From assembly GCA_002483145.1 (NCBI GenBank), contig DLHJ01000014.1:434001-498000 (forward strand): 64,000 bases of DNA, written 5' to 3'. Made by a program: the position numbers and the translations under genes. The notes below the pieces were generated by a model. The model was given only the letters and a program-made list of their open reading frames with translations, had not been told where the DNA came from and did no database searches. The DNA is from Cellvibrio sp. UBA7671 (GTDB lineage: Bacteria > Pseudomonadota > Gammaproteobacteria > Pseudomonadales > Cellvibrionaceae). Shown in pieces: positions 31,993 to 46,353 of this stretch (the first letter of the stretch is position 1; the number at the start of each line of letters is the position of its first letter).

Positions 31993-32005
31993 CTATTTAG
32001 TAATG

Positions 32006-32034
32006 AAAAAAGCCCCACATCTGGGGCTTTTTTT
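32006..32034 (+). terminator. terminator of the tRNA operon
   Basis: A 12-base stem AAAAAAGCCCCA / TGGGGCTTTTTT with a four-base loop, followed by T residues, 14 bases after tRNA-Asp. Confidence 0.92.
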
Positions 32035-32233
32035 ATGGCTGCAATTTCATAGCGACTAAACATCGCTACCACTACCAAACACTATGCCCATCAAACCTCA
32101 CTCATTAGATCGATTTCCCCAGTCAACTTAATCAAATTCCTTTCTGTACTGTGCAGTTAAGTAATTTAGAAAAATCTCCAAAAAAGACCCCAAAAGGAAT
32201 GTTCGCGGATATTTCGCTGGAGATCAAAGCTGA

Positions 32234-32380
32234 TCATACCGCCTTGTTGTTTATCCCCTGATCCGCCTTTGCAGAATCTTCTTTGATATGTTTGTAGGCG
32301 TAGATACCTACATAAGTAATCATGATGCAAGCCAATGCAACTATCACTAGACCATAAAGAACGATTGAATCGATATACAT
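32234..32380 (-). CDS. 48-residue single-helix membrane protein with Anr/FNR-type promoter
   Basis: A short gene: MYIDSIVLYGLVIVALACIM opens the product, followed by ITYVGIYAYKHIKEDSAKAD and a polar tail. A perfect GGAGG (32386-32390 as CCTCC on the plus strand) lies five bases before the ATG. One hydrophobic helix (about 6-29) is followed by a charged C-terminus of about 19 residues, a layout like small oxidase-associated subunits (CcoQ, CydX) or assembly peptides, though I see no family motif. A perfect TTGAT-N4-ATCAA box lies about 40 bases upstream of the predicted start of transcription, so oxygen-limited expression is likely. It sits between the ccm blocks. The product is unidentified; that it is a real gene is well supported by the signals. 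Confidence 0.72.
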   Translation of the reverse strand: MYIDSIVLYGLVIVALACIMITYVGIYAYKHIKEDSAKADQGINNKAV

Positions 32381-32390
32381 AGAAACCTCC

Positions 32391-32413
32391 ATAGACTGAC
32401 ACTATCAGTCTAT
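32391..32413 (-). promoter_or_regulatory. inverted repeat over -10/+1 of the small membrane-protein gene
   Basis: Perfect nine-base arms ATAGACTGA and TCAGTCTAT separated by CACTA, directly abutting the Shine-Dalgarno site. They overlap the predicted -10 (TATAGA) and transcription start, so a repressor operator is more likely than an RNA hairpin. Confidence 0.55.
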
Positions 32414-32448
32414 AAAAGAGTGGGGGCGCTAAAATTGATTCAAATCAA
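32409..32448 (-). promoter_or_regulatory. Anr/FNR box and -10 of the small membrane-protein gene
   Basis: TTGATTCAAATCAA at 32435-32448 is a 14/14 match to the FNR/Anr consensus TTGATNNNNATCAA. A minus-strand TATAGA (32409-32414) would start transcription near 32402, placing the box centre at about -40, the class II activation position. There is no -35 hexamer, as expected for an activator-dependent promoter. Confidence 0.78.
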
Positions 32449-32455
32449 CATGGGG

Positions 32456-35400
32456 CTAATCATCAAGCTCGAATGTGAAACGATTCTTTACTCCACGAGT
32501 GACTTTGGGCACACCATTTTCAATGGAGGGGATATAAACAAATTTTTGTGCAGCACTAATTGCCTCCTCCTCAAAATATCCTTGCGGTTCCGCGCTCATT
32601 ACTTTGATGTTGGTGGTAGTACCGGAATCCGTAACATCGTACTGAACCAATACAATTCCCTCTTGTTTCTCATCCAGAGCCTTGTAAGGATATTTCGGTG
32701 GAGTTTTAATTATCGGCATAGCTTCTGTTGCAATAGCATGTGCACTTAATGATTCCACCCAAATCTGATTTAACTTATATGCAGCAAGCCTTTCTTGCGC
32801 TTTCTCAGAAGCAACACCAAACAAATCTTTTAAAGCATCAGTTTGGGTTTTTATACTCAGATCAAACTCACCATTTGCGGCGTAAGCAGCTGCAAGTACT
32901 TCACGGTTAGCAGGAGTGTCGTGTTTCTTTAAGACTGCACGGATGATTTTTATCGCACGCTTTGGTTTAAGCAGTTCATTATCATCTACAACAGATAGAA
33001 GCCAAGCTAAACGCACTCCCGCAGCCAAATGCCCGGATTCATAAGCTTTGTTGTAAAAATATATCGCCCGCTCGTAATTTCGGGTAACGGAGTTGCCGCT
33101 CTCATATAGTATTGCAAGTGCATAACTCCGCGCTCCAGACTCATCACTTTCATAGAGCAAATTGACTAACCGTTCAACCATTGTATAGATATTGTTCTTT
33201 TTATATTTAATTCGATCTTCAGGTAAAGGAAAAGCTATTCTCAGCTCCTGCCTGACTTTTTCCATTGACCAGTTTTTTTTGAGCTGATTATAAAACTGCT
33301 TATGACCATCAGCCTCTTTTGAAACATATAGAATAAATGGCTCATCATTCTCTGGATAAATCTTTACTACTGCATCATTTGAGTCCTCTGCCTCTTGCGA
33401 AGATAGTTCAATATCTTTTACCTCTGCCAGTGGTAATGACTCATGTTGCAATTCGCCCTCTTCTTCCCAATAAGAAAAAACACTGGTATTGGTAAAGCCA
33501 TTACCGTCTTTGCGTATATCAAGGAGTGCCGAGCTGTAAAAGCGCTGAATGGTTTCGTCTTCCTCAATTAAACCTTTACGCTGCATAAATTTGACGTGAT
33601 ATGACCACAAATGCTTTCCATCTATTACTTTTGTATTGGCAAAAAAACCGGATTCCACACCTATGTAAAGCAACATAAAGGGCAAAAAAAACAAAATGAC
33701 TAGCAAGTGTCTCCAACGAAAGCGCGAGTTATATACATAAATATTGGCATCTTTTTGCGGAATTCTATTGATTTGGATAACCAGGGGGAGCACCAGCAAG
33801 ATACACACCAAAATAGCGGCCACATCGTAAATAGCAGGGGCTTTATTCGCTGCAATATTGGCAACAAAAAATAGCAATGCCAGTGCAGCCGCCAAACCCA
33901 ATGAAGCCGGTAAATAGAGTCGGTTTTTTACCTGCTCATTCGAGATCAAAGCTTGATAGAACGGGTAATACCAAAATGGAGAAAAAAATGCACGCGCAAA
34001 AGGTAAAATTGAACTGTTATCGTTGCGCTTCACATAAATCCAATTGCGCCAGAACCAATAAGATAGGTAAATCCCAAAGGTGAAGACAGATAATACAATA
34101 AATTTCACCACGCTTACCGGAAAAAAGACGGCCGCTAGATTGTACTCTTGCCTTTTTTTATCCCGATACCAACCAATAAACGCCAGCACCAGCAATAATA
34201 AAAAAACAACACATAATGACCAATACAGATAATCTTCGTAGTGAAAACTATTTGCCTGTGCAACTGCTGGCTGGTAAACATTGTAACCAATGTCATCCAT
34301 AACTTTTTTTCTTGCACTGGCATACTCATTGATTTTCTCTGCCGGAACATGATCCTTCTTGGTTTCATATTTATAGATCAAATTCAGAACATTTTTTTCT
34401 GAATCAAAATTGATATTGCTAGAGTAATGAAAAAACTCATTATCCTCGACAACAGTCTCTTGCTCAAAACCCCAGTCGCCTCTTACTTTTACCTGGATTT
34501 TTTGAGTAATCGAATCTGGGTAACGAAGCGCAAAAGGTGAATTGCGATGTAACTCATCGGGTTTAAGAACATTAGTTTCAATAATACTTGCATACACGCC
34601 GGCATACTTTTGATTCTGGTTTGATTCGCTAGTCTGCCAAATATTGGCAATGGAATAGGCCTCTCGCACTTGAAAATGACTTTCACCTGGGTAATCTTTA
34701 AATTCAACCGGTGCAGATGAGTTTATAGTTGGATAGTAGCCTTTGTAAAAATTAAGATATTGATCACCAGTTGAACGGAGATTGGTTTCAGCTGCTTTAT
34801 TTCGCTGGGTTTCAGCCTGGAGTCCTCTGTAATTTGTGGTGATGCGATATGATGCAGGTTTATCAAACGCGCCCGAAAGATCCAACTCCTCTTCAATGAT
34901 CTGTGCTGATATTCGTTTGTGAGTCATTTTCGTCAACGAAGTCGAACCCGGAGCAACTACCAAGGCATAGCCATAATCTGGCTGATAAATATCGGCAAGA
35001 CTGGATTGTTGATGCTGCCTGGTAGGATCTAGCCAGTAATTTTTACCATTCAACTCCACTTTGGTTATGACATGATTAAATGCTGTCGCCGCGGGCAAGC
35101 GATGGATTATCTCTTGCTTATCATCTGTATCAACTAAAGCAGGATAGGCCGCAATTCCCATCTGCCTAAGCAAGGAAATAAACAACACCGTTTTATCTTT
35201 ACAATCGCCGTAGCGCCGCTGCCACGTCTCCCCAGCTTTTGATGGCTTGTGAGAATTTACACCGGTTTCAATACCTAAATAACGAACTTGTGACTGGACT
35301 GCATCCAATGCAGCCTCAATTTGATCTTCCTTAGTGCTGTGTTTGCGCTGGATATCTGCTACCAACTGATCAATTGCACCATCACTTTCAATTGCGGACT

Positions 35401-36229
35401 CGTAGAGTGCCTGGGCCCAGACCACAACATCTGCCCAGTGCGCCACATCTGAAATTTCCACTCTTCCATAAGGGTTATACCAATCAGGGGTCTGATTGTT
35501 GGTCTGCAAAGGCTCAGTGTTTGCAGTCTGATAGATAAATTCTTTTGCGCCACCCAATTGCTTGATAACCGGCTTCAGTGCCGAGTTATTAGTTTTAACA
35601 TAAAGTTCATTTTCGCGCTCCCATAACAGCCTGAAATATAACTGGCGCAAGGAAACTGTCCACTGTGTGTAAAACCGATAATAGAACGCCCCTGCGTGTA
35701 TAGGATTATCACCAGTGATGGAATAACTATATTCAACTACATCACCAACGCGCAGGTCGCTGATAATAATGTTGGCGGTCAAACTGCCATCGTAAAGGGA
35801 GTTTTCCAACTCTTGTTCACGTTGCAGAACCGAGTATTTTATCTTGGGCAAAGCATCAAAAGGTTTGCCATCGCGATGGATTAATAGAGTATGAAATGTG
35901 AAGGTTTGATAACTTGGATCGTAATTAATGTTAACCTGCGAGGATTCCTGCAAACCGGACTGGTTAACAATTTTCTCCGCGTAATGTGAATAGAAAACAT
36001 TCTTTCCCTGCTGTGGAACACGCAACTGCTCATCCACCAAGAGGTAATAAACACCGCTATTAATTTTATCCTGAGGTATTACGTCGACATGAGGCAGAGC
36101 TTGGGGATTGATCCATGACGCAGGAGGAGCCACTTGAAGCTGATCTTTTTGCTCAATTGCAAAACCTTCGCAACTCAACAAAACCACAAACAGAAATGCA
36201 AATTTTATACGCATTATCAATACATCCAT
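32456..36229 (-). CDS. DUF3857-transglutaminase-membrane-TonB fusion protein
   Basis: A 1,257-residue envelope protein. A signal peptide (about 6-24; the ATG at 36214 may be the true start) leads into a DUF3857-like beta domain (about 50-240), then a transglutaminase-like domain with catalytic Cys343 (RRYGDCKDKT), His386 (AFNHVITK) and Asp401 (YWLDPTR). A periplasmic domain follows to 650, then at least five transmembrane segments (about 669-688, 703-726, 773-795, 801-822, 840-860). After these come a charged region, Sel1/TPR-like repeats (about 1030-1130, including NYERAIYFYNKAYESGHLAA) and a TonB-type C-terminal domain (1170-1257: PPKYPYKALDEKQEGIVLVQ). The catalytic triad is intact. It starts 30 bases after ccmG and is probably co-transcribed with ccmA-G. 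The substrate is unknown. Confidence 0.82.
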   Translation of the reverse strand: MDVLIMRIKFAFLFVVLLSCEGFAIEQKDQLQVAPPASWINPQALPHVDVIPQDKINSGVYYLLVDEQLRVPQQGKNVFYSHYAEKIVNQSGLQESSQVNINYDPSYQTFTFHTLLIHRDGKPFDALPKIKYSVLQREQELENSLYDGSLTANIIISDLRVGDVVEYSYSITGDNPIHAGAFYYRFYTQWTVSLRQLYFRLLWERENELYVKTNNSALKPVIKQLGGAKEFIYQTANTEPLQTNNQTPDWYNPYGRVEISDVAHWADVVVWAQALYESAIESDGAIDQLVADIQRKHSTKEDQIEAALDAVQSQVRYLGIETGVNSHKPSKAGETWQRRYGDCKDKTVLFISLLRQMGIAAYPALVDTDDKQEIIHRLPAATAFNHVITKVELNGKNYWLDPTRQHQQSSLADIYQPDYGYALVVAPGSTSLTKMTHKRISAQIIEEELDLSGAFDKPASYRITTNYRGLQAETQRNKAAETNLRSTGDQYLNFYKGYYPTINSSAPVEFKDYPGESHFQVREAYSIANIWQTSESNQNQKYAGVYASIIETNVLKPDELHRNSPFALRYPDSITQKIQVKVRGDWGFEQETVVEDNEFFHYSSNINFDSEKNVLNLIYKYETKKDHVPAEKINEYASARKKVMDDIGYNVYQPAVAQANSFHYEDYLYWSLCVVFLLLLVLAFIGWYRDKKRQEYNLAAVFFPVSVVKFIVLSVFTFGIYLSYWFWRNWIYVKRNDNSSILPFARAFFSPFWYYPFYQALISNEQVKNRLYLPASLGLAAALALLFFVANIAANKAPAIYDVAAILVCILLVLPLVIQINRIPQKDANIYVYNSRFRWRHLLVILFFLPFMLLYIGVESGFFANTKVIDGKHLWSYHVKFMQRKGLIEEDETIQRFYSSALLDIRKDGNGFTNTSVFSYWEEEGELQHESLPLAEVKDIELSSQEAEDSNDAVVKIYPENDEPFILYVSKEADGHKQFYNQLKKNWSMEKVRQELRIAFPLPEDRIKYKKNNIYTMVERLVNLLYESDESGARSYALAILYESGNSVTRNYERAIYFYNKAYESGHLAAGVRLAWLLSVVDDNELLKPKRAIKIIRAVLKKHDTPANREVLAAAYAANGEFDLSIKTQTDALKDLFGVASEKAQERLAAYKLNQIWVESLSAHAIATEAMPIIKTPPKYPYKALDEKQEGIVLVQYDVTDSGTTTNIKVMSAEPQGYFEEEAISAAQKFVYIPSIENGVPKVTRGVKNRFTFELDD

Positions 36230-45095: not shown

Positions 45096-45848
45096 CTAAT
45101 TCGTATATTCATACTCAATTCGCACATCCTGTGGGCCACCATTATCATCATCGATATTGGAGCGCCCATGAAAGCGCATAAGATATTTTCCATTTGGATC
45201 GTAGGCAAGATTAATAGGATCCGCAAAAAGCGAGATAACTTTTTGCGCTGGGGTTATGCGGAAATAGATCCACTCACTGCCGAAGTTGGTGTCATACACT
45301 GGTGACTCGGGCCCTTTTATTTTGCGCACTTCTAGCTGCAGACTGCTTAAGCGATTGGGCATTGCAAAATCAAATTTCAACCGCTTGCCGGCAACCAACT
45401 TATCCCAATTGAGTTGAATGTACGCATCAAACCCGGCATCAATTACCATGCGGGCATTATCGTATATGACTTTTTCATTTTGCGCGCTGTTCATGCCATG
45501 GGTAAGCACCAAGCGCGCACCTTGAAATTGCGCCGAAACATATTCGTTGTCCCGCGTGTCTTCATAGTTAAAACTGGGTTGATAGGGTTCGCCCTGATAC
45601 ACCAGTGTTTTTGAGGCAAAAGTGTTGCCCTCTGGCGTTACATAATCCACTCGCACCGATTGATTTTCATCAATGCCGGTATAGAGCTCGCGATAAATCA
45701 GCTGGTTATTTTCAAGATTGTAGGCACTGCCTGCAACGACATAATTGTCTTGCGCCAACGCGGTTGTAGCAGAAAATCCCACCAAAGCTGAGAGCAGGCT
45801 GCAAGCCAAAACATTACGAAGATAATCTGGTCGTTTTACGCTGGACAT
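45096..45848 (-). CDS. secreted protein of unknown family, last gene of the photolyase operon
   Basis: A 250-residue protein with a signal peptide cut near residue 32 (LVGFSATTALAQ) and a predominantly beta mature region. No recognised catalytic motif; stretches such as VRVDYVTPEGNTFASKTLVY and LKFDFAMPNRLSSLQLEV suggest a lipocalin- or carbohydrate-esterase-accessory-like fold, but this is only an impression. The start overlaps the DUF2878 gene by 35 bases, so it is translationally coupled to the operon. In related clusters, as I recall them, other envelope proteins take this place. Function is unknown. Confidence 0.72.
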   Translation of the reverse strand: MSSVKRPDYLRNVLACSLLSALVGFSATTALAQDNYVVAGSAYNLENNQLIYRELYTGIDENQSVRVDYVTPEGNTFASKTLVYQGEPYQPSFNYEDTRDNEYVSAQFQGARLVLTHGMNSAQNEKVIYDNARMVIDAGFDAYIQLNWDKLVAGKRLKFDFAMPNRLSSLQLEVRKIKGPESPVYDTNFGSEWIYFRITPAQKVISLFADPINLAYDPNGKYLMRFHGRSNIDDDNGGPQDVRIEYEYTN

Positions 45849-46353
45849 AAGATAAGACCCTCAAGCTAAGAAAACGATGCAGTGGCAGTACTACCAGCCA
45901 CAGGATCGCTATTATAGGTAAAACGCGAACCAAGGGGCTAGACCATTCCGCCGAAGACAAACTAACGCCCGCAAGATAGCTCAAGGGCGCAGCAATAGCT
46001 CCCAATAAAGCAGACCACAGGGGACGCGAATAGATCCATACCAGAGAGTGATTAAGGGTGATGCCCAACAATGCCCACAAGCAGACTAACCATAGCGGAG
46101 GCAGATAAGCAGATTCAGCAAACTGGATTTGGCCGCTGTGCAAAAGCAGCGAATCATGAAGCAAACCAAGTGCTATTGCTATGAGTACAGCAACCGCATC
46201 ATCGCGTCGTTGCTGCACAATCATGAAATGAAAAGCGATGGCCGCGAGCGTAAATACCCCAGCCCAAAAACTACCGCACAAAATACAAACGAACCAGCCG
46301 ACCTGAAACAATACGGCATTGGTGATGGTAAAAACCAATGCCCTGTTTATCAT
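45814..46353 (-). CDS. DUF2878 family membrane protein
   Basis: A 179-residue integral membrane protein with about six hydrophobic segments, of the DUF2878 type that often accompanies Cfa/DUF1365 clusters. The start at 46353 (MINRALVFTITNAVLFQVGW) overlaps the cfa stop as ATGA, which decides it against the longer frame to 46458. It could be a membrane partner of the lipid-modifying enzymes encoded upstream; that is inference from context. Confidence 0.82.
   Translation of the reverse strand: MINRALVFTITNAVLFQVGWFVCILCGSFWAGVFTLAAIAFHFMIVQQRRDDAVAVLIAIALGLLHDSLLLHSGQIQFAESAYLPPLWLVCLWALLGITLNHSLVWIYSRPLWSALLGAIAAPLSYLAGVSLSSAEWSSPLVRVLPIIAILWLVVLPLHRFLSLRVLSYVQRKTTRLSS

Follow-up and report, generated by a model that had tools for sequence, protein, structure and literature searches.

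The short open reading frame and its conservation

At positions 32234–32380 of the window (the whole 64-kb stretch of DNA that was analysed), the minus strand carries a ccoM-like gene of 48 codons plus stop, which was recognised by its open reading frame, its conservation and a profile match. According to the sequence and the ORF list, the ATG lies at 32380–32378 and the stop codon at 32236–32234, and the predicted 48-aa protein begins with MYIDSIVLYG. A Shine-Dalgarno sequence, GGAGG (32386–32390, minus strand; CCTCC on the forward strand), is located 5 bases 5' of the ATG, and GGAGG or a similar motif is visible upstream of most relatives' starts. The mechanically assigned start of the ORF at 32392 (52 aa) overlaps this GGAGG, whereas relatives keep the ATG at 32380 as their start. 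Since the mean hydropathy over 19 residues peaks at 2.66 (residues 6–24 of the 48-residue protein), one membrane helix is predicted.

In a search of 57 related genomes, 33 gave a match at E ≤ 1, and the gene was found in 19 out of the 21 genomes of the genus, that of the window included. In the other two, G002 gave no match and G007 a chance-level match only, and both were negative again with the family profile. Twenty-eight loci (L004–L031) were kept from the matches, while L032, L033 and the remaining rows (second or weak matches) were dropped; in L027, L029 and L031, the start was shifted upstream to the nearest in-frame ATG. An alignment of 19 of these 28 loci (A1) was built after omission of five near-duplicate loci and of the four that had diverged most (L027, L029, L030 and L031), a choice that favours a clean profile. 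A scan of 144 genomes with this family profile gave matches at E ≤ 0.01 in 80; in 64 of these the match reached E ≤ 1e-6, and the other 16 matches were weak and mostly partial.

Over codons 1–35 of the 19 genus copies, pN was lower than pS in all 171 pairs (mean pN of 0.21 versus mean pS of 0.78), and the differences from the window gene were concentrated at third positions. The reading frame was open in all 19 copies over these codons, whereas the other two sense frames were open in 0 and 3. Judged by these comparisons, the short ORF is a real, conserved gene. The first-pass annotation, which had described a real short gene with a GGAGG and a single transmembrane helix, is thus borne out, and so is the conservation of the frame in relatives on which it had proposed that the claim be checked.

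An Anr/FNR-type promoter

Upstream of the gene, TTGATTCAAATCAA (32435–32448, no strand assigned) is an FNR/Anr box, an exact palindrome with zero mismatches to TTGATN4ATCAA, just as had been noted at first. A -10 hexamer, TAGACT, is present at 32407–32412 on the minus strand, and its TAnnnT geometry is kept in relatives. From the -10 spacing and the box centre at -41.5, transcription is predicted to start (+1) at 32400 on the minus strand, which gives a 20-base leader. The class II position of the box that had been proposed therefore stood, with its centre at -41.5 and a conserved geometry, but the reading of the -10 as TATAGA did not, as the hexamer is TAGACT, two bases downstream. The reported absence of a -35 also agreed with a consensus scan, which found no sigma-70-type promoter in 32000–32600.

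Within the window, TTGATN4ATCAA occurs exactly at two places, and 8 sites are found at ≤ 1 mismatch versus 4.1 expected, so that the box alone is weak evidence. The second exact occurrence (45660–45673) lies inside an ORF at 45099–45860 on the minus strand and may therefore be a chance match. In the whole genome, 24 exact sites were counted versus 3 for a reversed control pattern.

Comparison across loci lifts the box above what chance would be expected to give. When the 117 bp upstream of the start were examined in the 28 Cellvibrionaceae loci, the window included, the best box had 0 mismatches in 24, 1 mismatch in 2, 2 in 1 and 4 in 1, and the predicted conservation of the box in relatives was thereby recovered. 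When 58 upstream regions were each mononucleotide-shuffled 200 times, one mismatch was reached in 0.4% and zero mismatches in none. Furthermore, across the 28 loci there is almost no variation at the ten half-site positions, while all four bases occur at every one of the four spacer positions, a pattern that argues for a binding site and not for recent common descent alone.

A chance short ORF accompanied by a chance box, and hence no gene at all, would draw on the modest significance of the box alone in the window and on the fact that short ORFs are common. Against this stand the open frame in every genus copy, the uniform excess of pS over pN and of third-position changes, and the conserved half-sites around a variable spacer; conservation refutes this explanation, and its probability is close to nil.

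The distance between box and -10 is equally constrained. TAnnnT was found with the box centre at -40.5 or -41.5 in 25 of the 28 Cellvibrionaceae loci, and when nine offsets were scanned in these together with the CcoM loci described below, all 51 matches fell at -40.5 or -41.5. The gene is thus preceded by the layout of a class II FNR/Anr promoter, namely an exact box, a TAGACT placing its centre at -41.5 and a conserved geometry. To judge from this layout, the promoter is built for switching on by the oxygen sensor Anr/FNR.

An inverted repeat at 32386–32418 (15 pairs counted), terminator-like in the consensus scan, covers the -10, the predicted start and the GGAGG. A similar, shorter mirrored TAGACT...AGTCTA is located upstream of the start in L014 and L017.

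Genomic surroundings, oxidase and regulator

In the genus, ccmG and ccmH flank the gene, and tRNA-Val and tRNA-Asp are encoded on the opposite strand; the placement within a split ccm locus in the first-pass annotation was therefore correct. Both ccm neighbours were present in 9 of the 19 loci tested and only ccmH or ccmI in a further 3, while 7 of the 19 gave no ccm match, most of these covering only 1.5 kb of flank. The tRNA-Val/tRNA-Asp pair adjoins the gene in 11/14 Cellvibrionaceae loci (window included) versus 0/15 CcoM loci of other families and is thus a local marker. Similarly, no ccm genes were recognisable at CcoM loci of other families (7 + 3) when the larger flanking ORFs were judged by eye. 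Because the ccm neighbourhood is found across the genus and was not seen at these other-family loci, the position says little on function; it is a lineage feature and not a sign of work in cytochrome c maturation. A ccm-linked role deduced from position alone was accordingly rejected, given that ccm genes flank both sides in 9/19 loci and none were recognised in the other families. The role that had been suggested for the gene is hence retained in part: oxygen-limited respiration is supported by homology to CcoM, whereas the link to cytochrome assembly finds no support.

In the window itself, ccmG is separated from the ccoM-like gene by a 1257-residue gene (32456–36229, minus strand) with DUF3857, transglutaminase core, Sel1-like and TonB C-terminal domains. 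As this gene was found in 0/19 related loci tested, it looks like an insertion in the window's lineage. At L016 (1432–1617), the ccoM-like ORF (73 codons) extends into sequence antisense to tRNA-Asp, and its tail therefore appears to have been lost or replaced.

The window's own genome encodes the presumed partner elsewhere. It contains a single match to ccoN (747 bits; cut-off, 583), a ccoP over the cut-off, a FixQ/ccoQ gene in the cco operon (L080, 4657–4824; PF05545, 34.1 bits; cut-off, 29) and a ccoO recognised by eye in the ORF list, and an exact box is found about 190 bp upstream of the ccoN start. It also carries an Fnr family gene (283–285 bits; cut-off, 228) with a CxxCx5C motif and a later Cys, which we take to be the iron-sulphur ligands. 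This genome therefore has the oxidase and the regulator as well as a box at each of the two loci.

According to PMC10433244, an Anr/FNR-type regulator controls cbb3 oxidase expression. The same paper describes P. stutzeri proteomics in which CcoN, CcoP and CcoQ were more abundant aerobically than under oxygen limitation, and simple low-oxygen induction may therefore not hold everywhere.

Relationship to CcoM and to other small membrane proteins

The best NCBIfam match of the predicted protein was CcoM, NF041600 (E of 1.3e-5, 25.6 bits, aligned from residue 1; 24.8 bits in the genome scan). Since the curated equivalog cut-off of this family is 40 bits, above the 25.6 bits of the window protein, the latter is treated as diverged and CcoM-like and not as an over-threshold equivalog. 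A single-sequence search of solved chains up to E 10 returned only 5djq_N (E of 0.74), and with a profile of 19 relatives this chain, P. stutzeri CcoM, came first of four PDB matches (E of 0.0031). The 19 Cellvibrionaceae sequences were also aligned, profile to profile (hhalign), with 16 CcoM sequences over the cut-off, chosen from 30 loci (alignment A2). This gave a stated probability of 98.0% and an E of 1.7e-13, in an ungapped alignment of columns 1–36 to columns 1–36. The score of this 36-column core was 51.7; it did not exceed 15.5 when all columns were shuffled (150 times), or 33.9 when shuffling was restricted to the helix (columns 5–28, 150 times). These helix-column shuffles still reached up to 95% stated probability, which means that part of the signal comes from the start motif and the tail; the 98% figure alone is not decisive. 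Among the 16 CcoM sequences, hand-picked from the 30 loci, eight positions are invariant (M1, D4, V7, G10, V14, F20, G23 and D31); the window protein keeps five of these eight, without F20, G23 and D31. Three loci of another family (L064, L066 and L069), which are over the CcoM cut-off, combine CcoM and Cellvibrionaceae traits.

When the 390 genomes of the order were scanned for CcoM, 104 matched at E ≤ 0.01, of which 89 were over the cut-off and some rest on weak partial matches (e.g., G347 and G213); no match was obtained in 14 control genomes. The 30 loci that were read are the best 30, by E-value, among these 89 genomes. In the 117 bp upstream of the start, these best 30 loci showed a box with 0 mismatches in 8, 1 in 18, 2 in 2, 3 in 1 and 4 in 1, and TAnnnT was present in 26 of them, only at -40.5 or -41.5. 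Hence, these genes share the promoter design of the window gene.

Across the order, the ccoN gene was present in 103 of the 104 genomes with a CcoM match versus 198 of the 286 without (Fisher, 5.6e-13, uncorrected for kinship), and the sole CcoM genome without ccoN (G375) has a completeness of 54%. Within a single genus (g44), both genes were found in two genomes (G245 and G265) and neither in three others (G060, G098 and G130). The reverse situation, ccoN with no detected ccoM, concerns those same 198 genomes in the order as well as G002 and G007 in the genus of the window, and the subunit is therefore either dispensable or too diverged to be found. In two genomes of another family (f6), ccoN is followed about 10 kb downstream, on its own strand, by an over-cut-off ccoM that comes directly after fnr (319.7 and 301.7 bits for fnr; cut-off, 228). 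This arrangement of ccoM behind fnr/anr (L098, 1546–2523; L099, 11093–12080) is located in a region of ttcA and cco genes; in L098, ccoO, ccoP and ttcA were also confirmed.

Taken together, the product is most likely a diverged CcoM, the known small subunit of the cbb3 oxidase, and we hold with considerable confidence that the locus carries a diverged ccoM which would be activated by Anr/FNR in class II fashion at low oxygen and whose product would join the cbb3 oxidase. Anr binding, induction, association with CcoNOP and the assembly effect are what we infer. When oxygen is low, Anr/FNR in its Fe-S form would bind the box at -41.5 and, acting as a class II activator, contact RNA polymerase, so that a short transcript would begin near 32400. 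By analogy with CcoM, the 48-residue, one-helix product would then bind the cbb3-type cytochrome c oxidase, whose genes (ccoNOQP) lie at another place in the genome, and might help it to assemble or to stay stable. A role of P. stutzeri CcoM in oxidase assembly or stability was reportedly proposed by Kohlstaedt et al. in 2016.

Two other assignments of the protein's partner were weighed. It could be an Anr-controlled membrane protein specific to Cellvibrionaceae, resembling CcoM only in MYxD and a helix and serving a different partner (e.g., the Ccm apparatus or another respiratory complex). Its location between ccmG and ccmH, the score below the CcoM cut-off and the portion of the profile score retained by the helix-shuffled controls would fit this. 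We nonetheless consider it unlikely, as the true helix columns clearly raise the score above that of any of those shuffles, the three loci over the cut-off bridge both sets of traits, over-cut-off CcoM genes are preceded by the same box and -10, and no ccm genes were recognised by eye at the 10 CcoM loci of other families. Alternatively, CcoM may have become a distinct subfamily in Cellvibrionaceae, with a longer charged tail (KHIKED...) and a position beside ccmG, that couples cytochrome c maturation to cbb3 assembly. If true, one Anr-driven small protein would bring newly made c-type subunits to the oxidase, but this is quite improbable.

As a diverged ccoM, the gene thus receives a name and a probable role in spite of falling under the curated threshold, and CcoM is extended to a polysaccharide-degrading family. 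The gene had been presented as a possible new small subunit or chaperone; sequence, promoter and co-occurrence point instead to the known CcoM, that is, most likely to a kind of protein already described and not to a new one. An FNR/Anr box at a fixed distance from the -10 precedes ccoM in Cellvibrionaceae as well as the CcoM genes of other families in the order, and this detached gene would be tied to the regulator that, as stated in PMC10433244, controls cbb3 oxidase expression. No report of Anr control of ccoM was found in the literature searched, which did not include the founding CcoM paper, and such control may be known.

With regard to known systems, DUF2976 and TIGR03745, an integrating conjugative element membrane protein, show weak similarity to the window protein across the hydrophobic stretch (Pfam DUF2976, E of 6.5e-4, 20 bits; TIGR03745, E of 6e-5, 22.8 bits). 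These scores are, however, below the respective cut-offs (28.2 and 52.5), and in both cases the matched part is a hydrophobic segment inside a longer profile. These families comprise longer proteins in a mobile-element context, whereas in the genus the gene keeps a stable position next to tRNA-Val/tRNA-Asp and ccm genes, not within a mobile element. An identity as a conjugative-element protein was rejected on the basis of the scores, and kinship with these families is very improbable. CcoQ/FixQ (PF05545) is likewise a small single-helix cbb3 subunit, but the genome has a separate ccoQ in its cco operon and the window protein gave no PF05545 match up to E 10, and this identity was rejected too.

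P. stutzeri CcoM (5djq chain N; NF041600) is the closest counterpart. The window protein differs from it in its length (48 residues, with a longer tail, versus 36), in the replacement of F20, G23 and D31 by M, Y and H, in its score under the curated cut-off and in the location of its gene between ccmG and ccmH, beside tRNA genes. Both share the start M-[YF]-x-D, one helix in the same place, an ungapped alignment over residues 1–36 and a short charged tail, and both are encoded outside ccoNOQP in coexistence with ccoN, behind an FNR/Anr-type box at -40.5 or -41.5.
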